Below, one piece after another: positions 1 to 55,807 of a DNA stretch of 64,000 nt. A program made the position numbers and the translations under genes. Position 1 is the first letter of the stretch; each line of letters opens with the position of its first letter. This DNA is from Acidobacteriota bacterium (GTDB lineage Bacteria > Acidobacteriota > Terriglobia > Acidiferrales > UBA7541). The stretch is taken from NCBI GenBank assembly GCA_003225295.1, contig QHYZ01000074.1, positions 1 through 64,000 of the forward strand, written 5' to 3'. Under the pieces are notes generated by a model, which was not told the DNA's origin, did not search any database, and saw only the letters and a list, made by a program, of their open reading frames with translations.

Positions 1-54
1 CTCCTCCAGGAGCTTGGATCTTTTGGTTTCCAAAGTATCGACATCGTCAGGCAT
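1..54 (-). CDS. N-terminal fragment of an unidentified protein, cut by the window edge
   Basis: A reading frame starts at the ATG complementary to 52-54 and runs off the left edge, giving MPDDVDTLETKRSKLLEE. A purine-rich Shine-Dalgarno (AAGGA) lies about 8 bases upstream on the minus strand, supporting a real start. The 18 visible residues are charged and could begin a coiled coil, but no family can be named. It is divergent from valS, and the 230 bases between them hold the two promoters and no gene that I can see. Confidence 0.5.
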   Translation of the reverse strand, partial: MPDDVDTLETKRSKLLEE

Positions 55-284
55 AAGGGATTCCTTTCTGTACCGCAGATTGTCTGTACGTATATAGACG
101 TTCAGAACAATGTCACAAAAAAAGAAATCCCGCAAGATGGCACCTCCATGTCGCTCACCCGCCTGGGCCCCCCGAATTGACGCAGCCGCTTTTCCCCTCG
201 TATAGTCGAAGATTACTCTGAACGACAGGAGATGCGTCGAGAGCGGGCAGCCAAGCTAGCCCCTGCACTGGAGAAGCGCACCGC

Positions 285-2990
285 ATGGCTCGCGAAATAG
301 CCAAGGCGTACGAACCGCAGCAGATCGAACCGCGCTGGGCAGACTTCTGGGTAAAAGAAGAACTGTTCAAGGCGGATGCGAATGCGCCCGGGCCGGTGTT
401 TTCGATCGTCATTCCGCCGCCGAACGTGACCGGATCTCTGCACATCGGGCACATGCTGGACCATACGGAGATCGACATCCTCACACGCTGGCACCGGATG
501 AGGGGATTCAACACACTCTATTTGCCGGGAACGGACCACGCCTCGATCTCGACGCAACGGGTGGTTGTGCGGCAATTGGCGGAACAAGGAATCGATTATC
601 GAAACCTGGGACGCGAAGAATTCGTGAAGAGAGTGTGGAGGTGGAAAGAAGAGTCGGGGGGCATGATCACCCGGCAAATGAGACAGATTGGGGAGAGCTG
701 CGACTGGTCGCGCGAGAAGTTCACGCTTTCTCCGGAATTGTCACGCGTGGTCATTGAGGTGTTCGTCCGGCTCTATGAGGAAGGGCTGATCTACCGGGAG
801 AACCGGCTGTTGAATTGGTGTCCGGCATGCCTGACAGTGCTGAGCGATTTAGAAGTGGTGCACGAGGAGCGGCAGGGACACTTGTGGTATATCAAGTATC
901 CAGTCGTGGGGACGCCGGAGTTTCTCGTGGTGGCAACGACCCGGCCGGAGACGATGTTAGGCGATACGGCCGTGGCGGTAAATCCGGAAGATGAGCGGTA
1001 TGTGCACCTGGTTGGCAAGAAAGTGCTGTTGCCACTGATGAACCGCGAGATCCCCATCATTCCCGACGCGATGGTCGATCGCAAGTTCGGGACAGGTGCG
1101 GTAAAAATTACCCCGTCGCATGATCCCAATGACTTTGAGGTGGGACGACGGCACAAATTGCCCCAAATCGACGTGATGACCGACGATGGCAAAATGAATG
1201 CGGTGACGGGAGTCTACCGGGGGATGGACCGCTTCGAGGCGCGGGGAAAGATTGTTGAGGATTTGAAGGCGCTGGGATTGATGGAACGGGTCACCGATCA
1301 CACCAGCGCTATTGGGCTTTGCGAGCGGAGCAAGACGATTGTCGAGCCGCGCGCATCGACGCAATGGTTCTGCAGGATGAAGCCGATGGCGGAGCCGGCG
1401 ATTGCGGCGGTAGAACGAGGGGAGATCCTGATCGTGCCGGAGAACCGGCGCGAAGAATACTTCAACTGGATGAGGAATATCCGGGACTGGACGTTGTCGC
1501 GGCAGCTCTGGTGGGGACACCGGATCCCGGCATGGTATTGCAAGGAAAACAGGCACGTCACGGTGGTGCGCGAAGCGCCCGCGAAGTGTGCGACGTGCGG
1601 GTCGACAAACCTCGAACAGGATCCCGACGTTCTGGACACCTGGTTCAGCTCGGGGCTGTGGCCGTTTTCGACGCTGGGCTGGCCTGCAGACACGCGGGAT
1701 TACAAAACGTACTATCCAACGAGCCTGCTGATCACCGGATACGACATCCTGTTTTTCTGGGTGGCGCGGATGATCATGATGGGAATTCACTTTACGGGCA
1801 AGATCCCCTTCCGTGCCGTTTATCTGCACTCGCTGGTGCGTACCGGGAGCGGCGAGAAAATGTCCAAGTCCAAAGGGACGGGACTGGACCCGGTGACACT
1901 CAATCAGCAGTACGGAACAGATGCGATGCGCTTCTGCCTGGCGGCTATGGCCGCGCCGGGGACGGACATCGTGCTGACCGAGGACAAACTGGCAAGCGCA
2001 CGGAATTTTGCAAACAAGATATGGAATGCGGCGCGGTTCCTGTTCGTGAATCTGGACAAGTTCGAGGAGCGTGGGGCGAACTTGGAAGAGCTGGCGGCGC
2101 CGGAGGTGCGTGCAAAGGCGCCCTACGCCTATGGTGGCAGCGTTCCGCTGGTGGATGCGTGGATGTTTGCGCGGCTGGCGGCAACTGTGGAGTCAGTCAA
2201 TGAAGCGCTGGCGAATTACCGGTTTCACGAGGCTGCTCAAGGCGTGTATCAATTTTTCTGGGGTGACTTCTGCGACTGGTACATCGAATGGGTGAAACCG
2301 GAACTGCAGAGCGCGGATAGCGCGCGGGCAACTGCAGCATGGAAGAATTTGTTCGCTGCGTTCGATGCGGCGTTGCGTCTACTGCATCCTTTCATGCCGT
2401 TCCTAACCGAAGAGCTGTGGCATCAGTTGCCGCAGAAAGTGGGCGCCAAGTCGATCGCATTGGATCAATTTCCAGAAGCGCAGGGCCACTGGAAGAACAC
2501 AAAAGCGACGGCGGATGTGGCTGCCATCCAGGAAGTGGTCACGGCGCTGCGCAACATCCGAGCGGAACTGAAACTTGACCCCAAGAAGAAAGTGACGGCG
2601 GACTTCTCCACCGGCGATGCCGGTACGGGTGACCTGGCTCAGGCGAATCGCGGGGCGATTGAGAGATTCGCGGTGTTGTCAGAACTTCGCTTGATTCCGC
2701 GCCAGCAGTTGGAAACGAAAAGAGAGGCCGTGCGCTCCACGGCCACGTTTGACGTGCGCATCGCGTATTCCGACGCTGTGGATATCGCCGGGGAGAAGCC
2801 GCGCCTAAGCAAAGAGATCGAGAGTCTGCAGAAGGCCATCACGTCGAAGGAGCGGCAGCTCGGCGATCAGACGTTTCGGAGCCGCGCGCCCGAGAATATA
2901 GTCAAAGGGTTGGAAGTTACACTCGCGGAACAGCGCATCGCGCTTCGCAAATTGCAAGAACGCTTGTCGCAGCTCGACGGAGATTCATAG
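285..2990 (+). CDS. valS: Valyl-tRNA synthetase
   Basis: Charges tRNA-Val with valine in the cytoplasm, with an editing domain that hydrolyses mischarged Thr-tRNA. The 901-residue protein has the class I signatures HIGH at residues 53-56 and KMSKS at 525-529, the CP1 editing insertion between them, an anticodon-binding domain, and a C-terminal coiled-coil arm (about 835-900) that is typical of ValRS and absent from IleRS and LeuRS. Length fits the family. The ATG follows a GGAG about 10 bases upstream. It is the first gene of a tight run; nadC follows after 14 bases. Confidence 0.97.
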   Translation: MAREIAKAYEPQQIEPRWADFWVKEELFKADANAPGPVFSIVIPPPNVTGSLHIGHMLDHTEIDILTRWHRMRGFNTLYLPGTDHASISTQRVVVRQLAEQGIDYRNLGREEFVKRVWRWKEESGGMITRQMRQIGESCDWSREKFTLSPELSRVVIEVFVRLYEEGLIYRENRLLNWCPACLTVLSDLEVVHEERQGHLWYIKYPVVGTPEFLVVATTRPETMLGDTAVAVNPEDERYVHLVGKKVLLPLMNREIPIIPDAMVDRKFGTGAVKITPSHDPNDFEVGRRHKLPQIDVMTDDGKMNAVTGVYRGMDRFEARGKIVEDLKALGLMERVTDHTSAIGLCERSKTIVEPRASTQWFCRMKPMAEPAIAAVERGEILIVPENRREEYFNWMRNIRDWTLSRQLWWGHRIPAWYCKENRHVTVVREAPAKCATCGSTNLEQDPDVLDTWFSSGLWPFSTLGWPADTRDYKTYYPTSLLITGYDILFFWVARMIMMGIHFTGKIPFRAVYLHSLVRTGSGEKMSKSKGTGLDPVTLNQQYGTDAMRFCLAAMAAPGTDIVLTEDKLASARNFANKIWNAARFLFVNLDKFEERGANLEELAAPEVRAKAPYAYGGSVPLVDAWMFARLAATVESVNEALANYRFHEAAQGVYQFFWGDFCDWYIEWVKPELQSADSARATAAWKNLFAAFDAALRLLHPFMPFLTEELWHQLPQKVGAKSIALDQFPEAQGHWKNTKATADVAAIQEVVTALRNIRAELKLDPKKKVTADFSTGDAGTGDLAQANRGAIERFAVLSELRLIPRQQLETKREAVRSTATFDVRIAYSDAVDIAGEKPRLSKEIESLQKAITSKERQLGDQTFRSRAPENIVKGLEVTLAEQRIALRKLQERLSQLDGDS

Positions 2991-6685: not shown

Positions 6686-7993
6686 ATGGCTGATGAACTA
6701 AAAGTCTCGATTGAAAAACTCATTTACGGCGGTAACGGTTTGGCGCATGCCGATGGAAATACCGTTTTCGTGCCGTATGTTTTGCCTGGCGAGGAGGTGC
6801 GGGCAACCACGAAATCGAAAAAGAAGAGATTGATCTGGGCCGAACTGCTGGAGGTCACTTCCCCGGCCAAAGATCGCGAAAAAGCAAAGTGCGCTCATTT
6901 TCAAAAATGCGGCGGCTGCCACTACCAGCACATTCCGGCAACGGAGCAGTTGAGACTCAAAAAGGACATTCTGCGCGAAACGCTCTTGCGGCTTGGCGGA
7001 ATTGCCTGGGATGGCGCGATCGTGGAGCATTCGGCGGAGCCCTATGGCTATCGAAACCGCGCGCAATGGGCAGTGCGAAGCGGGATGCCTCGGGCGCTGG
7101 GATATTTCCTGCCGGAGAGCTCCATAATCGTGCCGATTGATGACTGCCCCGTGCTCTCGCCGCGCCTCGCGAGCACGTTCGCCCAGCTTCAGGAAATGGC
7201 CCGCTCCGGCAGGTTGCCAGAAGGTATCCAGGAAATCGAAGCCTTTGCCGACTCGCTGGACGAAAAGATTGCGCTGAACGTGGCGTTTGAGAAATTCCCG
7301 AAGCCCGCCACGGAGCTTGCATCTACCTTCCGGGACGTTTTGCCCCAGATCGAAAGTTTGCTTTTGCTGGACAAAAAGAAGAATCGCTTTGAATTGACGG
7401 GACCGGGTTACTTGACGCACGAAGCCGGCGGATACAAATACCGGGTCAGCCATCTTTCATTCTTTCAGGTGAACCGATTCCTGATCGAGGATTTGCTGAA
7501 GACGGTGACGGCGGATGCGCATGGCGCGCTGGCGCTGGATTTGTATTCGGGAGTTGGTTTCTTTGCGTTGCCGCTGGCAAAGACGTTCCAGAACGTGGTG
7601 AGCGTGGATGCTAACCTCGCCGCGACACGAGATCTTTACGCCAACGCGGAGGTTGCCGGTGTCACGATCGTATCGCACAACGAACATGCGGAAGAGTTTC
7701 TGAAAAAAACCGAAGAAAAACCAGACTTCGTGGTGTTGGATCCGCCCCGAGCAGGATTGGGAGCGGAACCCGCAGAGAAGCTCGCGGAGCTCGGCGCCAA
7801 AGAGATGGTGTACCTTTCCTGCGATCCATCCACACTGGCTCGTGATCTGGCGGTGCTGACGGGCTCACGCCGGAAACGGAAAGAAAACACCGGGCCAAAC
7901 ATCCGCTACGAAATCACGGAAATGCATCTGTTCGATCTGTTCCCGCAGACGTTTCATATCGAAACCCTCGCGAGGTTGCAAAGAGTGCCATGA
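6686..7993 (+). CDS. rlmD: 23S rRNA (uracil-C5)-methyltransferase, RlmD/TrmA family
   Basis: SAM-dependent methylation of a uridine at C5, most likely U1939 of 23S rRNA. An N-terminal TRAM (OB-fold) domain of about 60 residues precedes a [4Fe-4S] cluster site with Cys69, Cys75, Cys78 and Cys154, as in E. coli RlmD. The methyltransferase domain has the SAM motif LDLYSGVGFFALPLA, then LDPPRAGLG and the catalytic Cys379 in YLSCDPSTLARD. Length (435) matches. TrmA proper lacks the cluster; RlmCD-type enzymes are the alternative, so the exact target base is inferred. The stop overlaps the start of the decayed comEC (ATGA). Confidence 0.9.
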   Translation: MADELKVSIEKLIYGGNGLAHADGNTVFVPYVLPGEEVRATTKSKKKRLIWAELLEVTSPAKDREKAKCAHFQKCGGCHYQHIPATEQLRLKKDILRETLLRLGGIAWDGAIVEHSAEPYGYRNRAQWAVRSGMPRALGYFLPESSIIVPIDDCPVLSPRLASTFAQLQEMARSGRLPEGIQEIEAFADSLDEKIALNVAFEKFPKPATELASTFRDVLPQIESLLLLDKKKNRFELTGPGYLTHEAGGYKYRVSHLSFFQVNRFLIEDLLKTVTADAHGALALDLYSGVGFFALPLAKTFQNVVSVDANLAATRDLYANAEVAGVTIVSHNEHAEEFLKKTEEKPDFVVLDPPRAGLGAEPAEKLAELGAKEMVYLSCDPSTLARDLAVLTGSRRKRKENTGPNIRYEITEMHLFDLFPQTFHIETLARLQRVP

Positions 7994-8615
7994 GGCTGCC
8001 GGCCCCAGCGATGACCGCGGCATTTGCCTGCGGCATGGTGATAGACCTGCACCCCGCGGTGGTGCGAAATGGTGCGCCTCTTATTCTCCCTTCCTCTTCT
8101 TTGGTGACGATAGTTGTTCTCCTGCTGGCCGCCATCCTTCTCCTCAGGCTCGGGCATCGGGGCGGGCTTTCTCAAATCCGGGAACATGGTCCTGTTGCGA
8201 AACTCTGAATCGGGCGTGAACTGTCTTCCCCGGCCCCGCCGAGACGCGAAGAATTGGCGCGCACCGACAATCCGCATCGAACCCGAGCTGGGTGGCAATG
8301 CTTTTGGCTGGGATGGCTTCGAGGGAGACTTTTTTCTGGCCCGAGTTTCCTCCGGAAGGGGTCGCTTCTCGAGTGACGAGCAATGACTCGCTGGTGCCTA
8401 AGCCGCGCTCCAGGCGGACGGAGCATCCGAAAAACAAGTGGAACGCGAAGTTCTCTTCTAGAACAGCGCGGAAGCAATGCACTCGGGTGCGCTGAAGATC
8501 GGACATCACGGAGGCAAGAATTCAACTACGCCGGAATTCCTCGCGGCCGGCGCGGTATATATGTTGACGGATGGAAATCATCTGCTTCGTTGCGTGTCCA
8601 GGTACTGCAAACGCT
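7990..8615 (+). pseudogene. comEC: Decayed comEC (DNA-uptake channel) remnant
   Basis: The ATG at 7990 overlaps the rlmD stop and opens a hydrophobic N-terminus (MRLPAPAMTAAFACG, then LVTIVVLLLAAILLL) like that of ComEC/Rec2. The large competence domain is missing. From about 8200 the C-terminal metallo-beta-lactamase-like domain appears in pieces: GNAFGWDGFEGDF in one frame, FFWPEFPPEG plus SNDSLV after a slip in a T6 run near 8330, then SEKQVEREVLF, an in-frame TAG, and LKIGHHGGKNSTTPEFLAAG in another frame, ending in a shifted ICFVACP. Intact ComEC is usually 700-850 residues. Two or more frameshifts, a nonsense codon and a deletion of well over 1 kb make it non-functional. Confidence 0.8.
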
Positions 8616-8621
8616 ACCGCG

Positions 8622-9179
8622 TCAGTGCGGACGGAGACGCCAGATGGCCAGCAAGACCAAGAGTAGAAATAAGAAGCCAACGGGGGCCTGCCACTCATGG
8701 TTTTTCTTGTACTGGGTCAGAGAGAAGGACCCGGCCGAGTCTCGAGGCAGTCTCGCGGCGGTCAGACGAGGAATAAAAAGCGGGACGGCGCGTGCATACT
8801 CTTCGAAAGATGCCCGGTGGCGAAGGTGGAGTTCAGTCGTTTCCCTCCGCATCACGATGGAATAAAAAATCGCGAAGTAGAAAAAAAGGATGGAGACTGA
8901 GATCCACGAGCGCGTGGCAATTCCGGCTCCGAGAGCCAGGATGGCGCTGCCGAGATAGAGCGGATTTCGAGTGTAACCGTAAGGGCCGGTGACGGTGAGG
9001 ACTTCCTGCTTGTGAAGATAGCCGGCTGCGTACGCGCGTACCGACAGACCGACAGCTCCCGCCAGGGCCCCCAACAAGATGCTGCCAGGTGTGGGCCTGG
9101 AGAAACCGAGAACTGCTATCGCGAGCGGATAGCCCAGCCGTACACGCCAACGCACAAAAAAATTGCCGACCCCGCTCAT
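8622..9179 (-). CDS. Isoprenylcysteine carboxyl-methyltransferase-like membrane protein
   Basis: A 185-residue integral membrane protein of the ICMT/phospholipid-methyltransferase superfamily. It has hydrophobic segments near residues 15-50, 80-115 and 160-180, and the family core VTGPYGYTRNPLYLG (about 63-77) followed by R-R-E-T-T-E-L and F-x-x-Y (FEEYARAVPLFIPR), which shape the SAM pocket. Bacterial members methylate small lipophilic substrates; the substrate here is unknown. It overlaps the waaC stop by 4 bases as the last gene of the LPS-core operon, so an envelope-lipid substrate is a guess. Its 3' end meets the comEC remnant. Confidence 0.75.
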   Translation of the reverse strand: MSGVGNFFVRWRVRLGYPLAIAVLGFSRPTPGSILLGALAGAVGLSVRAYAAGYLHKQEVLTVTGPYGYTRNPLYLGSAILALGAGIATRSWISVSILFFYFAIFYSIVMRRETTELHLRHRASFEEYARAVPLFIPRLTAARLPRDSAGSFSLTQYKKNHEWQAPVGFLFLLLVLLAIWRLRPH

Positions 9180-10204
9180 CGGCGAATCTCAACCTGCCGG
9201 CGAACCGCGTCGAACACGTCGTCGACGGCGATTTCCAGAATGGAAGCAGCGGCTTGGTCGCCTCGTTTGTAGGTGGTCACCGCGTGCGGACTACGCAGAA
9301 CGATGTTGATGGGAGAAGCGTTGCCACAGCCGTCGCTCATTCGATAGGGACCATTTCGCGCCGGGTCTGTTGGACCAAAGATGGCGACGGCAGGCGTTCC
9401 TAGAGCGGCCGCCAGATGCAGCGACCCGGTATCACCACCGACGATGCAGACCGCATTGCGCAGAAGAGCCATGAGTTGGCCGATTGAACCATTGTAAGCG
9501 ATGGGGTCGGCTGCCCCGCTGGCGGCTTTGACCACGGAGACTACCCCATCTTCACCGGGGCCATAATTCAGAACCGAACGCAGTCCGAGCGTGCCGCGGA
9601 TTTTCTGGCAGAGAGCGCCGTAGCGATCCGGCGGCCAGCATTTCGAGCGCCAGCCCCCGGCGGGGCTCAATACGACGTACCGTTCGATAGCCATGCTTCG
9701 CAGGAGTTGCAAGACAAACACTTCCTGAATCGACGGCACCGAGAGGACGACGGACGCCACGCCCTTGCGAGCACCAGCGCGCTGCGACAATTCTCCATTC
9801 TGATCGGCGATGTGGGTCTGTGTGCAATGGACGCCATCGGTGTAGAGGATCGGTACGCCGAACTCGCGAACCGTTTGCGAGGAAAATCCGATTCGGTGTG
9901 AAACGCCGGCGAAGAACGGCAGTGCCGAAGACTTCCACAACCCTTGATAGTCGATCGCAGTCGTGAAGTGCGCCTTGCGGATTCGTCCGATGATTTCGCG
10001 CAAAGATTGGAAGGAGCGAGTCTCCGTCTCCCAGACGTCCGTTGCCAACTCGCTGCTTTCGACCAGCGCTTTCCAGCGGGGATGCGTCAGCCAAACGATT
10101 TCAGCTTCCGGAAACGATTCGCGCAGACCGGCGACGGCGGGAAAGGTGTGGACGATATCTCCGAGGGAACCAAGACGCACGACCAGGAGGCGCGGCTCAG
10201 GCAT
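9176..10204 (-). CDS. waaC: ADP-heptose:LPS heptosyltransferase I
   Basis: A family GT9 glycosyltransferase adding a heptose from ADP-heptose to the Kdo of the inner LPS core at the cytoplasmic face. The 342-residue protein begins LLVVRLGSLGDIVHTFPA, the GT9 acceptor-domain signature, and contains LSPAGGWRSKCWP, then GGDTGSLHLAAALGTP and IFGPTDP in the donor half. Assignment as HepI rather than HepII rests on the SLGDIVHT start and on a second GT9 gene at 12309-13355. It overlaps hldC by 8 bases and the downstream methyltransferase gene by 4. Confidence 0.88.
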   Translation of the reverse strand: MPEPRLLVVRLGSLGDIVHTFPAVAGLRESFPEAEIVWLTHPRWKALVESSELATDVWETETRSFQSLREIIGRIRKAHFTTAIDYQGLWKSSALPFFAGVSHRIGFSSQTVREFGVPILYTDGVHCTQTHIADQNGELSQRAGARKGVASVVLSVPSIQEVFVLQLLRSMAIERYVVLSPAGGWRSKCWPPDRYGALCQKIRGTLGLRSVLNYGPGEDGVVSVVKAASGAADPIAYNGSIGQLMALLRNAVCIVGGDTGSLHLAAALGTPAVAIFGPTDPARNGPYRMSDGCGNASPINIVLRSPHAVTTYKRGDQAAASILEIAVDDVFDAVRRQVEIRR

Positions 10205-44506: not shown

Positions 44507-44929
44507 TCAGGCAAAGGGGTTGGAGATCGTGACGCTTCCAATCTGCTGTCCATCCTGAAAGTCTTCACTGTAAAGAACTCCACACTGACCCTCGATGGCA
44601 GAAGCGACGATCAACGAATCGTACCAAGGCAATTGGAACCTCGCTCCAACCCGTAGCGCCTCTCCATACAAAGCTTGCGAAGAGTGCACTGACAGGAGCG
44701 GACGAAACGTGGTCGACAAATATTGTTCTGCGTCGACGGCACTCATAGGTTTTGAGAAACGGCGCAGTGCAACGTTAAAGAACTCTTGCACCACTTGATA
44801 GCTAACAATTCCGCCGCGCGTCTCAATTGCACTTCTGATCAGCTTTCTGGCTTGCGCAGCCTTCTTCGGCGAACTTGCGTCAAAGGAATACACGAAGATG
44901 TTTGTATCGAGAAAGAACCTACCGTTCAT
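44507..44929 (-). CDS. PIN-domain toxin (VapC-like ribonuclease)
   Basis: A 140-residue PIN protein with FLDTNIFVYSFD (first acidic residue Asp8), QEFFNVALRR with the second acidic Glu, and WYDSLIVASAIEGQCG with the third Asp, then YSEDFQDGQ. These are the four conserved acidic metal ligands of VapC endoribonucleases. It overlaps the antitoxin gene by 11 bases, the usual TA layout with the antitoxin first. It lies directly downstream of the tRNA, within the island. RNA target unknown; VapC toxins often cut initiator tRNA or 23S rRNA. Confidence 0.88.
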   Translation of the reverse strand: MNGRFFLDTNIFVYSFDASSPKKAAQARKLIRSAIETRGGIVSYQVVQEFFNVALRRFSKPMSAVDAEQYLSTTFRPLLSVHSSQALYGEALRVGARFQLPWYDSLIVASAIEGQCGVLYSEDFQDGQQIGSVTISNPFA

Positions 44930-45137
44930 TCATCTCGTCCCGATTGAAGCGCCGCCCCGCCTGTACATGCTTCAGTCGCTTCATCAGAGCGTCGAACTCC
45001 TGCGTGCCACCGCTTCGTGCTGTGAATTGCTCCAGCCATTCGCGGAACATAGCATTGAGCGTCTTATGCTGCGATTTGGCCAACAGGCGCGCTTGCTCAA
45101 TCAGTTGCTCATCTGCACTGAGGGTAATGTTTTTCAT
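44919..45137 (-). CDS. Ribbon-helix-helix antitoxin of the PIN toxin
   Basis: A 72-residue protein with MKNITLSADEQLIEQARLLA, a CopG/RHH-like beta strand and helix, and a basic C-terminal tail likely to wrap the toxin. It precedes and overlaps the PIN gene by 11 bases. A perfect palindrome (45149-45167) lies 11 bases upstream of the ATG and is the probable operator for autoregulation. Confidence 0.82.
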   Translation of the reverse strand: MKNITLSADEQLIEQARLLAKSQHKTLNAMFREWLEQFTARSGGTQEFDALMKRLKHVQAGRRFNRDEMNER

Positions 45138-47755: not shown

Positions 47756-47996
47756 CGTGCGACCGCTGGTGGGCAAACAGGAGGTCACTCAGTGGCGAGG
47801 ATTTCGGGAACGTCCAGCCAGGGGGCGCAATCCGAATCCACTGTCACGCCTGTTCGACGAGTTCTGTTCATCCTCGGGAGCCATCGCGTCGAAGATAGCT
47901 GCCTGTCCGCCCGTGCTGGTTTGTTCTCTGCCTGAATGATTTCCAAAGTCCTGATTGGGGCTGCGAGCATGCTAGGATGGCCTGCTGATCGATTCC

Positions 47997-50093
47997 ATGA
48001 TTGGACAAACGCTAGATCACTACCGAGTCATTGCGCAGATTGGCGAAGGCGGCATGGGTGTCGTGTACCGCGCGCGGGATGAAGTTTTGAACCGCGATGT
48101 GGCACTAAAGCTGCTTGCCCACGGAGCAATCGACAAAGTTAGCCCCGGCCATTTGCTTCGCGAAGCTCAGACGGCGTCATCCCTAAGTCATCCGAATATT
48201 TGCACCATTCATCAGGTGGGAGAGACCAGCAACGACTTCTACGTGGTGATGGAACTGATTGAGGGGCGGTCGCTCAGCGATTTAATCACGGCGACGGGCC
48301 TCTCGATGGAAATAGTGACGCGCTACGGCACGCAAATCGCGGACGCATTGGCCCATGCCCATGACCGCGGCATTGTGCATCGCGACCTGAAGGGCTCGAA
48401 CGTGATGGTAACGCCCGAGGGACGTGTGAAGGTGCTGGATTTCGGGCTGGCCACGCGGCTCGACTGTGAGGAAATCAATGAGCTCACACTTTCTTATGCC
48501 TCCCTGGAAAGCAAGCTGGTGGGAACGCTTCCGTATATGGCACCAGAAGTTTTGCGCGGGCAAAAGGGTGATCACCTGAGCGATCTGTGGTCGCTGGGGG
48601 TGCTCCTCTATGAAGCAGCAGCGGGGAAGCTACCGTTTCGTGGGAACACCGGCTTCGAGGTGACCTCGGCGATCCTGCGCGAGCCGCCTCCCCCGCTGCC
48701 TTCAACCGTTCCTTACGGGCTGGCGGTGGTGATCCTGGGCTGCTTGATGAAGGAACGCGCCGGTCGTTACCAGCGCGCCAGTGAAGTCCGCGCGGCGCTC
48801 GAGGCGGTTCAGGGCGCGGTTCTGCAAAGCCGACATCCCTCGGAGGAGACGCGCGGGCCTCGAACGCTCGTACTCCGGGGGATGGAACACCTCTCTGTGA
48901 AGAACGGAGACGTGCTGTTGCTCGTAGGCACGAATAAGGGAGCGTTTTTTCTACGCTCGTCCCGCGACCGCTCGAGATGGGACGTGGCGGGGCCGTATTT
49001 TCATGGCCAAGGCATCTATGCGATGGCCTATGACGGACGAAGCGACCGGCACCGCTTGTGGGTTTCGGCAAACAACGTGATGTGGGGTGCGTTTCTGCGG
49101 TCCAGCGATGACTTTGGCAGAATTTGGACCAATCCTCTGGAGGCGAGCATCAGGTTTCCCACGGAGTCCGGTGCTTCACTGAGGAACATTTGGCAAATTT
49201 GCCTGGGCCGAAACGAGGACCCCGAGAAACTCTATTGTGGGGTGGAACCTGCGGCCCTGTTCGAATCGGGGGATGGGGGCGAATCATGGTCAATGGTCCG
49301 CGGGTTGTACGATCATCCGCATCGGCCACGTTGGATGCCCAGCAATGGCGGGCTGGTTCTGCATACAGTTGTGCCGGACCCCTGCCATAAGGAGCGGATG
49401 TACGTGGCTGTGTCTGCCGGCGGTGTTTACCGCACCGAGGATGCGGGAAGCACATGGCTGGCCCGCAACAATGGAGTACGCGTGATGTTTCTGCCAGAGA
49501 AGTATCCAGAGTTCGGGCAGTGCGTACATAAAATTGGGCTCCATGAATCGCGGCCTGAGCGATTGTTCTTGCAAAATCACTGGGGGCTGTACCGTTCCGA
49601 TAACCGTGGTGATTCGTGGCAGGACATCGCGCGTGGGGTGCCCTCGGATTTTGGTTTCGCGATGCTAATGCACCCGCACGATGCGGACTGCGTATACATA
49701 GTGCCAGTGGAATCGGATGAGTTTCGCTGCACTCCGGAGGGCCGTTTACGCGTTTACCGCACGCGAAATGCGGGCGGTTCCTGGGAGGCCCTGAGCCGGG
49801 GGTTGCCCCAAAAAGGAGCATACGAAACAGTATTACGAGATGCCTTGTCGTCCGACTCGCTTGATCCGGCGGGGATTTATTTTGGAACGCGGAGCGGAAA
49901 GCTCTACGGATCGAGAGACGAAGGAAAGAGCTGGAAGAAAATTGTCGAAGGATTACCGCAGATCTTGTGCGTGAAGGCCGCTGTCGTCCACATGGATGGG
50001 GCGCCGACAACGAAACCGAATCTGAAATCAAGAATCTCGAAAAAGCGGAAAACTGCGCGCACGAAAAGAATCAGGCGCGGGAGATCGGGCTGA
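47997..50093 (+). CDS. Ser/Thr protein kinase fused to a six-Asp-box beta-propeller
   Basis: A 698-residue protein. The kinase domain (about 9-275) has the Gly loop IGEGGMGVVY (15-24), catalytic Lys38, HRDLKGSN with Asp130 and DFG with Asp148, then APEVLRG, so it looks active. The C-terminal half is a BNR/sortilin-like propeller with six S-x-D-x-G-x-x-W type boxes (SSDDFGRIW, SGDGGESW, TEDAGSTW, SDNRGDSW, TRNAGGSW, SRDEGKSW). No transmembrane helix separates the two halves, unlike typical PknB-type receptors, so the protein appears cytoplasmic. The last 30 residues are Lys/Arg-rich. Its stop overlaps the MoaD-like start by one base. Confidence 0.88.
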   Translation: MIGQTLDHYRVIAQIGEGGMGVVYRARDEVLNRDVALKLLAHGAIDKVSPGHLLREAQTASSLSHPNICTIHQVGETSNDFYVVMELIEGRSLSDLITATGLSMEIVTRYGTQIADALAHAHDRGIVHRDLKGSNVMVTPEGRVKVLDFGLATRLDCEEINELTLSYASLESKLVGTLPYMAPEVLRGQKGDHLSDLWSLGVLLYEAAAGKLPFRGNTGFEVTSAILREPPPPLPSTVPYGLAVVILGCLMKERAGRYQRASEVRAALEAVQGAVLQSRHPSEETRGPRTLVLRGMEHLSVKNGDVLLLVGTNKGAFFLRSSRDRSRWDVAGPYFHGQGIYAMAYDGRSDRHRLWVSANNVMWGAFLRSSDDFGRIWTNPLEASIRFPTESGASLRNIWQICLGRNEDPEKLYCGVEPAALFESGDGGESWSMVRGLYDHPHRPRWMPSNGGLVLHTVVPDPCHKERMYVAVSAGGVYRTEDAGSTWLARNNGVRVMFLPEKYPEFGQCVHKIGLHESRPERLFLQNHWGLYRSDNRGDSWQDIARGVPSDFGFAMLMHPHDADCVYIVPVESDEFRCTPEGRLRVYRTRNAGGSWEALSRGLPQKGAYETVLRDALSSDSLDPAGIYFGTRSGKLYGSRDEGKSWKKIVEGLPQILCVKAAVVHMDGAPTTKPNLKSRISKKRKTARTKRIRRGRSG

Positions 50094-50377
50094 TGCAGGT
50101 CTTGTTCACAATTCCGGGTCCGCTTCGTGAGTTCACAGCGAATCAGAGCGCCGTGCGCGTGGAGGTGGAAGCAGGCGCCAATCTGCTCCAAGTTTTGCAA
50201 GCGCTATTCGTTGAATACCCGGGACTTCGCGACAGAGTTCTAACCGAAGCCGGCCAAACTCGACAACACGTGAATATTTTTGTGGCCAACGAGAACGTAC
50301 GTTACACCGGTGGACTTGCGACGGCTATTCCTGCCGGCGCAGAAGTTTCGATTGTGCCCGCGATTAGCGGCGGCTAA
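50093..50377 (+). CDS. MoaD/ThiS-family beta-grasp sulfur carrier-like protein
   Basis: A 94-residue ubiquitin-like protein starting MQVLFTIPGPLREFTANQ and ending AISGG. The Gly-Gly end is the site that E1-like enzymes adenylate and thiocarboxylate in MoaD and ThiS. The start at 50093 overlaps the kinase stop by one base (TGATG), implying translational coupling. No moaE, moeB, thiF, thiG or JAB-domain protease gene is nearby, so its activator must be elsewhere. Genes for BNR-propeller proteins are known beside such proteins in other bacteria; here the propeller carries a kinase. Function unknown. Confidence 0.85.
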   Translation: MQVLFTIPGPLREFTANQSAVRVEVEAGANLLQVLQALFVEYPGLRDRVLTEAGQTRQHVNIFVANENVRYTGGLATAIPAGAEVSIVPAISGG

Positions 50378-50815
50378 CGACATGGCCTAAAATGCTCGGT
50401 GAGTGTGGAGCTAGGCACAAAGCAGATGACGGAGCGCGTGCATGATGTAGTTCGTCAATAGGAAATCCCGGGAAGCGAGCCAGAATTGGTGACCGGGCTG
50501 ATCGCATTTCGTTATCATCGAGGAGGTTCGAAAATGCTGCTGCCTCTCAAGGCACCGAGGCGGTGACCTCGCATGCTTCCCAAAGCACGGTCAGCGAGCA
50601 GGGCGATGGCTGCGATGCTTTTCCTTGTATGCTTGAGCCGGGTGTGCGAGACTACGCGCAATGATATCCAGTTACTCAGGCCGTGATCCTCGAGCGCTCA
50701 TTTCGATAACAGTGTACCTGCGGCTGACGAGAATGGATGTCTGCTGCGGTCCGCCTCCCTCGCTTTGATTCATCCCATCAGCAAAGTACGCAGGGGCAGA
50801 AGAGGGGAAGTGTAA
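50378..50815. other. 438-base intergenic region upstream of the DUF1989 operon
   Basis: No full gene or RNA family is recognised. An ATG at 50534 follows a perfect AGGAGG (50521-50526) and encodes only MLLPLKAPRR before a stop. A second short frame (50573-50686, 37 codons) has a hydrophobic core MAAMLFLVC. I looked for a guanidine-I riboswitch core (CTAGGG and GGTCCGAGAG type elements) and did not find one by eye. Confidence 0.4.
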
Positions 50816-51532
50816 ATGGAGGAGAATTCCGTTTTCTGGGAGGAGACCATTCAGCCGGGAGCGGCGTGGTCGCACGTGTTGAAGCGCGGAACAGCGCTAC
50901 GCCTTGTGGATTTGGAAGGCGGAGCGAATGTTGGCGCGATTTTCTATAACTTCGACTGTCCGGTGGAACGATACAACATGCCGGATACGCTAAAGGCGCA
51001 GCATATAGCGCGGCTCACCAAAGGTTTCGTGTTGTATTCCGACATGGGACGCATTCTATGTTCCATTGTTGAGGACAAGGTTGGCTGGCACGACCCGATC
51101 GGCGGAACTTCCAACGCCAAACTGGTGAAAGCGAGGTACGGGTCTTCGCGTTACCAGGAACAACGCAACGACTATCACAAGAACGGCCGGGACAGTTTCC
51201 TGATCGAGATGGGCAAGTGGGGGCTCGGCCCGCGCGACCTCACGGCCAATGTGAATTTCTTCACCCGTGTTGACGTCGCGGAGGATGGCAGCGTGAGCTT
51301 TGGTCCGGACAACTCCAAGGCTGGCGATTTTGTTGAGCTTCGCGCAGAGATGAACATTCTCGTGATTCTCAACACCTGCCCACATCCGCTCGATCCAAAT
51401 CCACGGTACGAACCAAAACCAGTGCGCTTGTCAGTCCGGCGGGCTCCGGTGCCAGGAGCGGATGATCCGTGCCGTGTTTCGCGGGCGGAAAACGGACGGG
51501 GCTTCACGCTGACGGAGAGATATTTTCTATGA
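50816..51532 (+). CDS. DUF1989 protein, probable carboxyguanidine deiminase subunit
   Basis: A 238-residue member of the urea-carboxylase-associated (DUF1989) family. Known pairs of these proteins form carboxyguanidine deiminase (CgdAB), converting carboxyguanidine to allophanate plus ammonia (literature on guanidine assimilation). Visible conserved features are [12 protein letters not shown], the VGWHDPIGG block and [14 protein letters not shown], ending with NTCPHPLDP. It is the first gene of the cluster and lies 13 bases before its paralogue. The assignment to one of the two subunits is not made. A purine-rich AGAGGGGAAG lies upstream of the ATG. Confidence 0.85.
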
Positions 51533-51545
51533 GGATACAACGTTT

Positions 51546-52205
51546 ATGGTCGGATTAGATCTAGTTGAAAGCAAACTTGAGCCAACAAGGGCCGTCTATA
51601 GCCAGGAGATTCCAGCAGGAGAGCCTTGGATCCATCCCCTGAGGAAGGGGCAGTATTTCCGCATCGTTGATCTGCACGGAAACCAGGCCGTGGATACTCT
51701 CTTTTACAATGAACATGATTACTCCGACCGTTACAGCGCGCAAGACACAATCCAGCAGCAAGGCAATATCTATCTCACGACCGGCACAAAGTTGATGTCA
51801 ACCGGTGGCACCGTGTTGCTGACGATCGTGGCGGACACCTGCGGCCGCCACGACACGCTGGGCGGAGCGTGCGCAACCGAGAGCAACATGGTACGGTACG
51901 CTCTCGAAAAGCGGCATATGCACGCGTGCCGCAACAGTTTCATGAAAGCGGTAATTGAGTGGGACCACGGCATGAGCAAGCGCGACATCGTCAGCAACAT
52001 TAATTTCTTTATGAACGTGCCGGTGACGCGGGAGGGCAAGCTCACGTTTGAAGACGGCATTTCCGAGCCCGGCAAGTACGTCGAGATGCGAGCGGAAATC
52101 GATGTGCTCGTTTTGATCAGCAATTGCCCGCAGTTGAATAACCCTTGCAATGCCTACAACCCGACTCCGGTCCAAGTGCTGATCTGGAATGTGCCCGAGA
52201 CGTGA
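51546..52205 (+). CDS. DUF1989 protein, second carboxyguanidine deiminase subunit
   Basis: A 219-residue paralogue of the preceding gene with the better preserved metal/active-site block: [13 protein letters not shown] and [23 protein letters not shown] and [18 protein letters not shown]. The pair probably forms a heteromer. Its stop codon shares one base with the carboxylase ATG (TGATG at 52203-52207), indicating coupled translation. The pairing with a carboxylase and allophanate hydrolase is the classic UAAP arrangement, formerly labelled urea-related. Confidence 0.86.
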
Positions 52206-55200
52206 TGTTTGGTAAAGTCCTGATCGCCAATCGCGGCGCGATTGCATGCCGCATTATTCGAACACTTCGTAAGATGGGAGTCTGCTCGGTTGCCGTGTAT
52301 TCCGAAGCTGACCGCCACTCGATTCATGTGGATCAGGCCGACGAAGCGGTTTGCATCGGTCCGCCAAAGCCCTCGCATAGCTATCTCTCTATACCGGTCT
52401 TGCTTGAGGCTGCGCGCAAAGCACAAGCAGACGCTGTTCATCCTGGATACGGTTTTTTGAGCGAGAATGCGGGCTTCGCAGAGGCTTGCGCGGCGGACGG
52501 AGTTGTGTTCATTGGGCCGACTCCGCAACAGATGCGCGACTTTGGTTTGAAACATGTGGCGCGTAGGATTGCCGCCGAGAACAACGTGCCGCTCCTGCCG
52601 GGCAGCGAACTGCTCGAAGACGTACCAACCGCGATCGAAGCCGCCGAACGCATCGGTTACCCGGTGATGCTGAAGAGTACCGCTGGAGGCGGTGGGATCG
52701 GGATCCGTTTGTGCCGTTGTGGTGAGGAATTGCGCCAGGCGTTTGACGCGGTCGCGCACCTTAGCCAATCGCATTTTGGAAGCGGAGACGTGTACCTGGA
52801 GAGATTCGTCTCGCAAGCCCGACACCTCGAGGTGCAGGTCTTCGGGGACGGCCGCGGCTCGGTGGCCGCCCTGGGAGAGCGCGATTGCTCCGTGCAGCGG
52901 CGAAACCAGAAGGTTATTGAGGAAACGCCCGCACCCGGTTTGGGGAGCGCGGTCAGGGAACAACTTATCGGCGCGGCGGTGCGATTGGCGAAGGCGGTGA
53001 AATACCAGTCTGCGGGAACGGTGGAGTTTGTCTACGATATGGAGAGCGGCGATTTCTATTTCCTAGAGGTTAACACTCGCCTGCAAGTCGAGCATGGCGT
53101 CACGGAGGAAGTGACAGGTGTGGACCTAGTTGAGTGGATGGTCAGGCAGGCGGCGGGGCAAGAGCTCGCGCTTGAGGAATTCACGACTCGCCGCTTTGGA
53201 TGCTCCATCGAGGCGCGCGTGTACGCGGAAGACGCAGCAAAGAATTTCCAACCGAGCGTGGGGAGACTTTCGCACGTCAGCTGGCCTGAGAAAGTACGGG
53301 TGGAGACCTGGGTGGAAGCCGGGACTGAGGTGACGCCGTTCTACGATCCCATGCTGGCGAAAATAATCGTGCACGCGCCAAGCCGGGAGGCCGCATTTCA
53401 CAAGCTTCGCGTTGCCTTGCGTCAATCCGAGCTGTCGGGATTGGAGACGAACTTACCGTACTTGCGACAGATCTGCGAAGGTCCGGCTCTGGCTCGTGGA
53501 TGTGTCACTACTTCGTTCTTGCGCGATCTCGTTTATCTCCCCCTAACTATTGATGTGCTTGAGCCAGGCACGCAAACTACCATTCAGGATTTCCCCGGCC
53601 GGCTCGGTTATTGGCATGTTGGAGTTCCTCCCTCGGGTCCAATGGATTCGCTGGCATTTCGCTTTGCCAACCGTCTGGTGGGTAATGCACGTGACGCTGC
53701 CGGGTTAGAAATCACACTGACGGGGCCGACCTTGCGTTTTTCCTGCGACGCGACGGTGGCGCTGACGGGCGCGGATTTCGGTGCGCGGTTAGACGACCGA
53801 CCGATTCCACTATGGCAGGCCGTATTCGTTCGTCGAGGCTCGGTGCTCGAATTGGGAGCAGCAAAGGGCACAGGTACACGGGCTTACCTTGCGGTCGCGG
53901 GAGGCATTGAAGCTCCGCTGTATCTTGGCAGCCGCTCGACCTTTATTCTCGGTAAATTCGGAGGTCAATCTGGCCGCACCCTTCGGGCGGGAGATGTTCT
54001 ACACATAGGCAATGCTGCGAGCAGTTCGGGAGAAGCCGCCAAATTGCCGGAACAGCTGATCCCGCGATATGAAAATGAGTGGGAGATTGGCGCCCTCTAC
54101 GGCCCGCACGGCGCACCGGACTTCTTCACTCCCGAGGACATCGACACATTCTTTTCTACTGCGTGGAGGGTACATTATAACTCCGACCGCACAGGGGTGC
54201 GACTCATCGGTCCGAAGCCGCAATGGGCGCGTAGGGATGGAGGAGAAGCCGGCTTGCATCCCTCCAACATTCACGACAACGCGTATGCAGTGGGGACCAT
54301 CGACTTTACCGGCGATATGCCGGTGATCCTGGGTCAGGATGGTCCGAGCCTGGGAGGCTTCGTGTGTCCGGCGACCATCGCCGACGCCGAGCTTTGGAAG
54401 ATAGGGCAACTGAAGGCTGACGACGTGGTGCAGTTTCGCGCACTCTCGCTGGACCAGGCTTTAGAGTTGAGCCGCGCACAGCAAGTAAACCTCGAAACGC
54501 TTGCCGGAGAGGTGCCCGCACTGCCAACCACCATTTCTCGTGAGAGTCCCGTCTTGCGGCGATTCGAATCGAACGGTGCGCCGGCAGTGGTCTATAGAGC
54601 TGACGGCGACCGGTGCTTGCTCGTGGAGTACGGACCGAATGTGCTGGATCTGAATCTGCGCCTCCGCGTCCACACTCTGGAACAACAATTACGCGAACTA
54701 AAACTTCCGGGGATCATCGATATCACGCCGGGGGTTCGTTCACTGCACGTGCATTACGATTCGCGCCTTGGTCGCGAAGGTCTGCTCGAAGCTCTGGACG
54801 ATTGCGATCGCCGCATTCCAGACCTGGACGACATTGCAGTGAATTCGCGCGTGGTTCATCTGCCGCTGTCCTGGGACGATCCGGCTACCCAGCTGGCCAT
54901 CCGCAAGTACATGCAGGGCGTGCGGCCGGACGCGCCCTGGTGTCCCAGCAATATCGAGTTTATTCGCCGCATCAACGGCCTCGATTCGATCGATAAGGTG
55001 CGCCGCATCGTGTTCGGCGCCAGCTACCTGGTGCTTGGACTGGGCGACGTCTATCTGGGAGCGCCGGTAGCCACGCCGCTTGATCCGCGCCATCGTCTGG
55101 TTACCACGAAATACAATCCGGCGCGGACCTGGACGCCTGAGAATGCCGTGGGAATTGGCGGCGCTTACCTGTGCGTGTACGGCATGGAAGGGCCGGGCGG

Positions 55201-55807
55201 CTACCAATTCGTCGGCCGCACCGTGCAGATGTGGAACACTTTTCGATCTACCGCAGAGTTTGCGCCGGGGACGCCCTGGTTATTGCGTTTCTTCGATCAA
55301 GTTCGGTTTTTCCCGGCGAGCGCGGAGGAGTTGGTGGACATTCGCGACGAATTCCCTCGCGGACGCTATTCGCTACCCATCGAGGAATCGCAATTTCGCA
55401 TGCGCGAATACCGCGCGTTTTTGAAATCGATCGAGGCGGATACCGGCACATTCAAAGCATGCCAGCAAAGAGCATTTGAGGCCGAACGAGAGCGATGGGG
55501 TGCCGCTGGGCTGGTCGAAGTCGTCGGGCCGCCGGATCAGCTCAGAGTTTCACCTAGCGATTTGCAAACTCCTGAGGGCTGCAGGCCCGTGCGTTCTCCG
55601 ATTGGCGCAAGTGTCTGGACGATTGGGGTAGAAGCTGGTCAGAGGGTGGAAGCCGGGCAGAAATTGCTTGTGCTCGAAGCGATGAAAACGGAGATTGTGG
55701 TAGTGGCGCCGAGCGCAGGTACCGTTGAAAGACTGCACTGCGCGCAAGGTTCGTTGGTCTCCTCGGGGCAGATATTATTGGCATTTCGCCCGGAGGCAGC
55801 CGTATGA
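52205..55807 (+). CDS. Biotin-dependent urea/guanidine carboxylase
   Basis: A 1200-residue multidomain enzyme. Residues 1-450 are biotin carboxylase ([27 protein letters not shown] and EVNTRLQVEHGVTE); then KipA/AHS2-like (GVPPSGPMDSLAFRFANRLV) and KipI/AHS1-like carboxyltransferase parts; the C-terminus is a biotin carrier domain with EAMKTE, biotinylated Lys1161. ATP, bicarbonate and the amine substrate give allophanate (from urea) or carboxyguanidine (from guanidine). The linked DUF1989 pair favours guanidine; the key substrate-discriminating residue should be checked against solved structures. BirA encoded at 3973 could modify it. Confidence 0.88.
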   Translation: MFGKVLIANRGAIACRIIRTLRKMGVCSVAVYSEADRHSIHVDQADEAVCIGPPKPSHSYLSIPVLLEAARKAQADAVHPGYGFLSENAGFAEACAADGVVFIGPTPQQMRDFGLKHVARRIAAENNVPLLPGSELLEDVPTAIEAAERIGYPVMLKSTAGGGGIGIRLCRCGEELRQAFDAVAHLSQSHFGSGDVYLERFVSQARHLEVQVFGDGRGSVAALGERDCSVQRRNQKVIEETPAPGLGSAVREQLIGAAVRLAKAVKYQSAGTVEFVYDMESGDFYFLEVNTRLQVEHGVTEEVTGVDLVEWMVRQAAGQELALEEFTTRRFGCSIEARVYAEDAAKNFQPSVGRLSHVSWPEKVRVETWVEAGTEVTPFYDPMLAKIIVHAPSREAAFHKLRVALRQSELSGLETNLPYLRQICEGPALARGCVTTSFLRDLVYLPLTIDVLEPGTQTTIQDFPGRLGYWHVGVPPSGPMDSLAFRFANRLVGNARDAAGLEITLTGPTLRFSCDATVALTGADFGARLDDRPIPLWQAVFVRRGSVLELGAAKGTGTRAYLAVAGGIEAPLYLGSRSTFILGKFGGQSGRTLRAGDVLHIGNAASSSGEAAKLPEQLIPRYENEWEIGALYGPHGAPDFFTPEDIDTFFSTAWRVHYNSDRTGVRLIGPKPQWARRDGGEAGLHPSNIHDNAYAVGTIDFTGDMPVILGQDGPSLGGFVCPATIADAELWKIGQLKADDVVQFRALSLDQALELSRAQQVNLETLAGEVPALPTTISRESPVLRRFESNGAPAVVYRADGDRCLLVEYGPNVLDLNLRLRVHTLEQQLRELKLPGIIDITPGVRSLHVHYDSRLGREGLLEALDDCDRRIPDLDDIAVNSRVVHLPLSWDDPATQLAIRKYMQGVRPDAPWCPSNIEFIRRINGLDSIDKVRRIVFGASYLVLGLGDVYLGAPVATPLDPRHRLVTTKYNPARTWTPENAVGIGGAYLCVYGMEGPGGYQFVGRTVQMWNTFRSTAEFAPGTPWLLRFFDQVRFFPASAEELVDIRDEFPRGRYSLPIEESQFRMREYRAFLKSIEADTGTFKACQQRAFEAERERWGAAGLVEVVGPPDQLRVSPSDLQTPEGCRPVRSPIGASVWTIGVEAGQRVEAGQKLLVLEAMKTEIVVVAPSAGTVERLHCAQGSLVSSGQILLAFRPEAAV

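Follow-up and report, generated by a model that had tools for sequence, protein, structure and literature searches.

A recurrent gene pair of a ThiS-fold carrier and a predicted BNR propeller, joined to a Ser/Thr kinase in one Acidobacteriota lineage

Introduction

To our knowledge, an acceptor has been described for each of the known ThiS-fold carriers, e.g. MoaE, ThiG or CysM. CysO of Mycobacterium tuberculosis belongs together with CysM, Mec and MoeZ; according to PMC3227635, MoeZ thiocarboxylates CysO and CysM serves as the carrier's acceptor. MoaX of the same organism unites carrier and partner in one chain and needs a cut after the Gly-Gly motif, according to PMC4326299.

Here, we describe a unit of two genes within a window of 64 kb, i.e. 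the whole stretch of Acidobacteriota DNA that was analysed. It encodes a Hanks-type Ser/Thr kinase fused to a BNR propeller and, directly downstream, a ThiS-fold carrier. This carrier is like CysO in sequence and in its Gly-Gly end, but its partner gene encodes the kinase-fused propeller instead of CysM, a JAB protein or an E1, and a thiocarboxylate is putative here. With SAMP1 (NF041918) it shares the profile, whereas it is bacterial and paired with a propeller, and conjugation is putative. The window kinase has every catalytic motif of the PknB-like Hanks kinases; unlike these, it lacks PASTA domains and a transmembrane segment (253 bits to the PASTA kinase model, 450 needed). The nearest solved propeller, PDB 3b7f (Reut_B4987, a putative BNR glycosyl hydrolase), is a structural-genomics entry without assigned function. 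It shares family and fold with the window propeller but comes without a kinase, and Cys220 of the window propeller is not retained in the 3b7f alignment. A possible analogy in the way of working is offered by Ycf48, a seven-bladed BNR propeller whose structure was determined together with a D1 peptide, as judged from the titles of entries 5ojr and 5ojp; Ycf48, however, is a photosystem protein of weak similarity to the window propeller (TM ~0.47/0.60).

The acceptor in this unit would be a propeller, a fold unpaired with such carriers in the literature searched, and the module occurs in many phyla. Should the kinase answer to the carrier, sulfur transfer or ubiquitin-like chemistry would be linked to phospho-signalling. 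The literature searched, with most subscription papers outside its scope, held no description of a propeller-ThiS/MoaD pair, nor did the parts examined of PMC1779556, PMC1949818 and PMC2948915. We regard the unit as real, conserved and undescribed as far as this search reaches, and as built of known parts.

Results

Architecture of the kinase-propeller-carrier unit

An earlier note on this DNA had described a kinase-propeller fusion whose stop codon overlaps the start of a protein ending in Gly-Gly, and open reading frames and profile matches confirmed all three elements (Table 1). The TGA at 50091-50093 and the ATG at 50093-50095 have one base in common, with the GGGAG ~9 bases upstream. Across the fused clade the gap between the two genes ranges from -1 to +161 bases, and the one-base overlap is not fixed. 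Chance is an unlikely source of this arrangement, since the same order is found at at least 18 other loci. A basic tail can be seen in each of the 19 fused proteins found. No transmembrane-like stretch is present in the fusion protein (the top 19-residue mean hydropathy of 1.58 lies within the kinase), which is predicted to be cytosolic.

Table 1 Features of the unit and carrier-enzyme chains at other loci
Feature	Position	Strand	Remarks
Kinase-propeller fusion gene	47997..50093	+	698 aa, ATG start; architecture repeated at at least 18 further loci
Hanks-type Ser/Thr kinase domain	48021..48761	+	residues 9-255; Pkinase PF00069 182.7 bits (Pfam cut-off 31.7)
Seven-bladed BNR/Asp-box propeller	48864..49991	+	residues 290-665; 3b7f profile match and model
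K/R-rich tail	49992..50090	+	residues 666-698; 13 K/R in 33; predicted disordered
GGGAG, ribosome-binding-site-like, for the carrier gene	50079..50083	+	inferred by reading the sequence
TGATG stop/start overlap	50091..50095	+	read from the sequence
ThiS-fold SAMP1/CysO-type carrier	50093..50377	+	94 aa, C-terminal Gly-Gly
L103, carrier followed by methyladenine glycosylase	7615-9141		
L115, carrier followed by low-molecular-weight phosphatase	9050-9829		
L181, carrier followed by EF-Tu-type GTPase	3-1466	-	
L058, carrier followed by HhH-GPD glycosylase	7170-8720	-	

The kinase domain contains the complete catalytic set (VALK, E, HRD, N, DFG, APE and DxW), and the earlier impression of an intact enzyme holds beyond the window, as the catalytic residues are kept at all 19 fused loci. 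K38, E56, D130, N135, D148, G150 and E184 are identical in 19/19, as are the 14 kinase positions inspected; the HRD arginine is kept in 17 loci and replaced by histidine in two, and the alanine of APE varies. Kinase, propeller and carrier are all under purifying selection. In the window subclade (n = 7), median dN/dS is lowest in the propeller (0.062), followed by the kinase (0.101) and the carrier (0.174); the values over 18 loci, with many pairs saturated, are 0.090 (propeller), 0.142 (kinase) and 0.173 (carrier).

The kinase fusion arose once

The possibility that the fusion is confined to this genome, raised in the same note, can be dismissed: at least 19 loci in all carry the fused kinase-propeller together with a carrier. 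Among the matches listed, at least 17 of 201 relatives have a long propeller frame (691-764 aa), a count that fusions with less similar propellers may escape, and a kinase domain (tblastn) and an adjoining carrier were found at each of these 17 loci. Within the genus, the fused unit occurs in at least 11 of 36 genomes. A phylum-wide search of 396 genomes (E ≤ 1e-120) returned 20 genomes, two of them with the kinase, namely the window genome and one of another class (G369). Named genomes add one fused locus, L094, on a 4.7-kb contig filed as Verrucomicrobia. Three loci (L095, L096, L097) are contigs of L046, L056 and L058, and each was counted once.

The 19 fused loci group into one clade when 69 propellers are placed in a quick maximum-likelihood tree (SH-aLRT 100, no bootstrap), and the kinase fusion amounts to one change. 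The kinase is thus a late addition of single origin, outside the general propeller-carrier module. DNA similarity between the window and its six nearest fused loci starts at 47949-48042 and ends at 50373-50384. The flanks differ among most fused loci, with L048 and L049 sharing theirs, and no flanking repeats or mobile-element ends of note were found around the window unit. That similarity stops at the unit borders between differing flanks free of such repeats suggests that the two genes moved or were kept as a unit.

Two side observations concern particular loci. In L094:169-2274, the first ~37 kinase residues look like those of a different kinase, and only the part after them is similar to the window, which may reflect recombination or misassembly. 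In L053, L054 and L055, fused and unfused propeller genes lie next to each other, and the unfused one in L055 has a carrier start of its own.

Propeller and carrier form a widespread pair without the kinase

That propellers and such carriers pair across phyla proved real and widespread. Among the best 80 of 586 relatives in named genomes, 44 have a carrier beside the propeller as judged by the carrier profile. Their record titles name nine phyla, led by Actinomycetota (21), Acidobacteriota (10) and Gemmatimonadota (6), and for two of these phyla the count depends on a single doubtful contig (L094 for one; for the other L112, near-identical to a Gemmatimonadota row). A second, partly overlapping set has a carrier in 73 of 122 loci; it includes genomes twice, e.g. 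the identical rows L108/L190 and L114/L189, and its negatives include L134, whose carrier was found in the 80-locus search, and L098, whose contig ends inside the carrier. Plasmid records contain Pseudomonadota pairs as well, in which the carrier lies upstream of the propeller, and the carrier is likewise upstream of relatives in Cupriavidus and Burkholderia. The window genome itself holds a second, unfused pair on another contig (C148). Streptomyces accounts for 31 of the 36 propellers without a nearby carrier among the best 80 of 586, which indicates that the propeller does not need a carrier next to it in order to act.

Clustering of the neighbours at 61 diverse loci left the carrier as the sole widely recurrent partner. 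Propeller and carrier make up a widespread two-gene module. Among 139 propeller loci, an E1-like gene joins one (L054, 5.5 kb away), and neither JAB nor MoaE was found near any (tblastn, 60 bits). Separate kinases lie near a few propeller loci; those of L064 and L065 are on the opposite strand, at distances of 259 and 277 bases. These two (L064:2476-3441; L065:8467-9408, minus strand) are divergent kinases by an unfused propeller and 37-38% identical to the window kinase. A LigD-like open reading frame was seen near three propeller loci (L070, L112 and L113).

The carrier is of the CysO/SAMP1 type

The carrier scores 42.6 bits against ThiS (PF02597, cut-off 22.5) and 67 bits against the NCBIfam SAMP1 model NF041918 (cut-off 60). 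Its closest solved structure by sequence is CysO (PDB 3dwg, E 3.8e-13), and its C terminus reads AISGG. The MoaD model TIGR01682 gives 13.5 bits where 66.15 are needed.

Gly-Gly is the exact end of the carrier at 11 of 19 fused-clade loci and at 55 of 73 others; in the remaining 8/19 and 18/73 it is non-terminal, and the motif itself is still kept. Four propeller-linked carriers continue in frame after Gly-Gly into unrelated enzymes (Table 1), each chain being Pfam-confirmed with ThiS above cut-off. By analogy, these chains resemble ubiquitin precursors. They also resemble MoaX in that the carrier is followed by another protein, although the MoaX partner, MoaE, is a functional one and the enzymes here are unrelated. 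In-frame GTG codons in L115 and L181 could provide a start for the enzyme, and none is present among the codons inspected in L103. Moreover, the stops may have been lost by error, because the loci are metagenome assemblies.

Two further carriers deserve mention. The one at L174 (G369) seems short by ~38 residues in its interior and extends beyond Gly-Gly, which may reflect decay or an assembly error. In the window genome, a ThiS-like gene follows a gene for a PLP-dependent enzyme (PF00291, perhaps threonine synthase; L090:6595-8386), and its product has SEL after Gly-Gly.

The propeller has a conserved face

The fusion protein matches Sortilin-Vps10 (PF15902) with 44.9 bits against a cut-off of 33. 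As to solved structures, 3b7f is both the best profile match (E 7.7e-108) and the top Foldseek match; the two propellers superpose with TM 0.83/0.92 at 36% identity, a match of full-length sequence and fold. The propeller did not fall into the BNR sialidase or GH74 families: short BNR models stay below cut-off, GH74 structures reach TM 0.57 at most, and the best structure is 3b7f. The predicted model is well defined (mean pLDDT 89.4, pTM 0.87) except for the tail, which lies below 50. The six Asp boxes reported earlier were recovered at residues 370, 424, 480, 534, 589 and 639; the blades number seven in the model, with strands assigned by hand.

The D>A and B>C loops lie on a common face of a propeller. 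With positions called conserved at ≥97% over 54 propeller rows and loops assigned by hand, conserved positions number 25/101 in D>A, 12/45 in B>C, 2/54 in A>B and 16/56 in C>D. The conserved D>A and B>C residues include His151, Arg154, His167, Glu216, Cys220, His222, His239, Arg288 and Arg325 (propeller residues such as Cys220, His222, His239 and His167 are numbered on the fragment counted from base 48864). In the model, the invariant residues concentrate on a single predicted face. The conserved C>D positions are mostly Asp-box residues, and mean conservation of these loops is 0.70 vs. 0.71-0.74 elsewhere. As the C>D loops are conserved too, the argument for a face hangs on the identity of the residues.

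To look at both partners in one model, the L097 propeller with its natural tail was joined to its carrier in a linked chain by reading through one stop (AlphaFold, single model, no control chain, judged by pTM and pLDDT). The model reached a pTM of 0.84; by our own estimate, pTM would be ~0.73 with the carrier unplaced and ~0.85 with it placed. The closeness to the latter value hints that the carrier docks in a set position relative to the propeller. The last three carrier residues, including Gly-Gly, have a pLDDT below 50, and an insertion of the tail into the propeller is thus unsupported.

Candidate partners lie elsewhere in the genome

The earlier note had seen no E1 or protease next to the unit. 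This is borne out for E1 and JAB: no E1, JAB or MoaE gene was found beside the window carrier gene, and E1 and JAB are encoded elsewhere in the genome. Genome-wide, PF02597 matches five places, PF00899 two, and PF02391 and PF14464 one each. On contig C223, a ThiS gene lies between JAB and E1 with a CysM-like open reading frame (named from its sequence) adjoining, and the E1 seems by eye to end in a rhodanese-like part. We name the C223 E1 the likely activator because MoeZ of mycobacteria thiocarboxylates CysO. The sole MoaE gene of the genome, on contig C329, is preceded by another ThiS gene at a distance of 48 bases. With this MoaD-MoaE pair elsewhere, the window carrier is not the obvious molybdopterin carrier; together with its TIGR01682 score, this led us to reject that role, and ordinary molybdopterin synthesis, the main alternative offered earlier, looks unlikely.

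JAB and ThiF matches are present in all of 20 genomes inspected (18 with the fusion; JAB matches in G012 and G160 are weak), and in 18 they share a contig within 1 kb. JAB was also found in 33/36 genomes of the genus, including 22/25 where no fusion was found. As JAB is near-universal in the genus, E1 and JAB in trans are no evidence of a link to the module, and JAB as the carrier-processing enzyme was set aside, its co-occurrence being uninformative.

A possible mechanism and its alternatives

Starting from the observed domains, pairing and spread, the single origin of the fusion, the constraint on all three parts, the separate MoaD-MoaE pair and the E1 and JAB genes in trans, our tentative main reading, to which we give a probability of about 0.4, is that a sulfur carrier has a dedicated propeller as partner or acceptor and that a kinase came to control the pair in a single lineage of Acidobacteriota. 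The core would consist of two proteins, a CysO/SAMP1-type carrier of the ThiS fold and a dedicated, seven-bladed cytosolic propeller. The MoeZ-like E1 from the CysM-JAB-ThiS-E1 cluster would activate the Gly-Gly end in trans, and the carrier, once charged, would dock on the propeller face where invariant His, Cys, Glu and Arg side chains lie. The propeller may act as acceptor or as enzyme of the sulfur transfer. In one Acidobacteriota lineage, the propeller acquired a probably active Hanks kinase at its N terminus, and carrier docking or charge state and phosphorylation might control each other in either direction. The gain of a kinase by the propeller hints that the pair came under signalling control. 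Against this reading count the carriers whose Gly-Gly is non-terminal and the mostly Streptomyces propellers with no carrier nearby. Of the interpretation given earlier, in which a kinase links carrier chemistry to phospho-signalling, the pairing, the spread of the fusion and a role apart from molybdopterin stand; the kinase does not belong to the general module.

The propeller could instead be a binding domain and no enzyme, with the fusion reading the level or charge of the carrier and reporting sulfur status. The genome is rich in kinases of such a build: 41 of 42 above-cut-off Pkinase matches have a long C-terminal part (frames varied, many of 750-1000 aa), and a propeller serving as sensor would follow this usual plan. 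The match list also contains Ycf48 with its D1 peptide (by entry title), and the linked-chain model appears to place the carrier. However, it is the propeller that holds the invariant residues and shows the lowest dN/dS, and both are older than the kinase; constraint that predates the kinase indicates that the propeller had a job without it. We hold a sensor kinase to be unlikely, and equally unlikely its wider consequence, a bacterial pathway in which the loading of the carrier leads to protein phosphorylation and which has a widespread module as its base. Attachment of the carrier to proteins, with the propeller as substrate adaptor and a kinase that marks or is marked, would suit the above-cut-off SAMP1 match, the tails and enzymes that, much like those of ubiquitin precursors, follow Gly-Gly at some loci, and a JAB protein in trans; yet an E1 is linked to the module in only one of 139 loci (L054) and JAB in none, and the CysO type of carrier is known from sulfur transfer, which leaves ubiquitin-like conjugation quite improbable.

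Slightly less credible still is a structural carrier-propeller complex in which the Gly-Gly chemistry is unused and the kinase is a passenger. Non-terminal Gly-Gly motifs (8/19 and 18/73 loci) and the variable intergenic gap are in line with it, but Gly-Gly is kept even when internal, and a kinase with a dN/dS of 0.10 and the full motif set in 19/19 loci does not look like a passenger. To an ordinary MoaD for molybdopterin, or a sialidase-like glycosidase beside an unrelated neighbour, we give very little credence: relatives do bear database names such as MoaD/ThiS and exo-alpha-sialidase, but the MoaD score and the dedicated ThiS-MoaE pair speak against the former, the recurrence of the pairing across phyla against an unrelated neighbour, and the weakness of GH74 and sialidase matches beside 3b7f against the latter. 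Our main reading remains a carrier served by its own propeller.

Neighbouring genes in the window

A link to urea carboxylase was considered and rejected, as no such genes occur in the clustered flanks of other fused loci and the six nearest loci resemble the window at the DNA level within 47949-50384 at most. The genes in question, UAAP1, UAAP2 and a urea-carboxylase-like open reading frame (so named by sequence; 50816-55807), start 439 bases downstream of the unit and are apparently unrelated to it. On the other side, at 44507-45137 of the minus strand, a PIN-domain gene (PF01850) follows a small open reading frame near the DUF6364 cut-off, an arrangement resembling a toxin-antitoxin pair.
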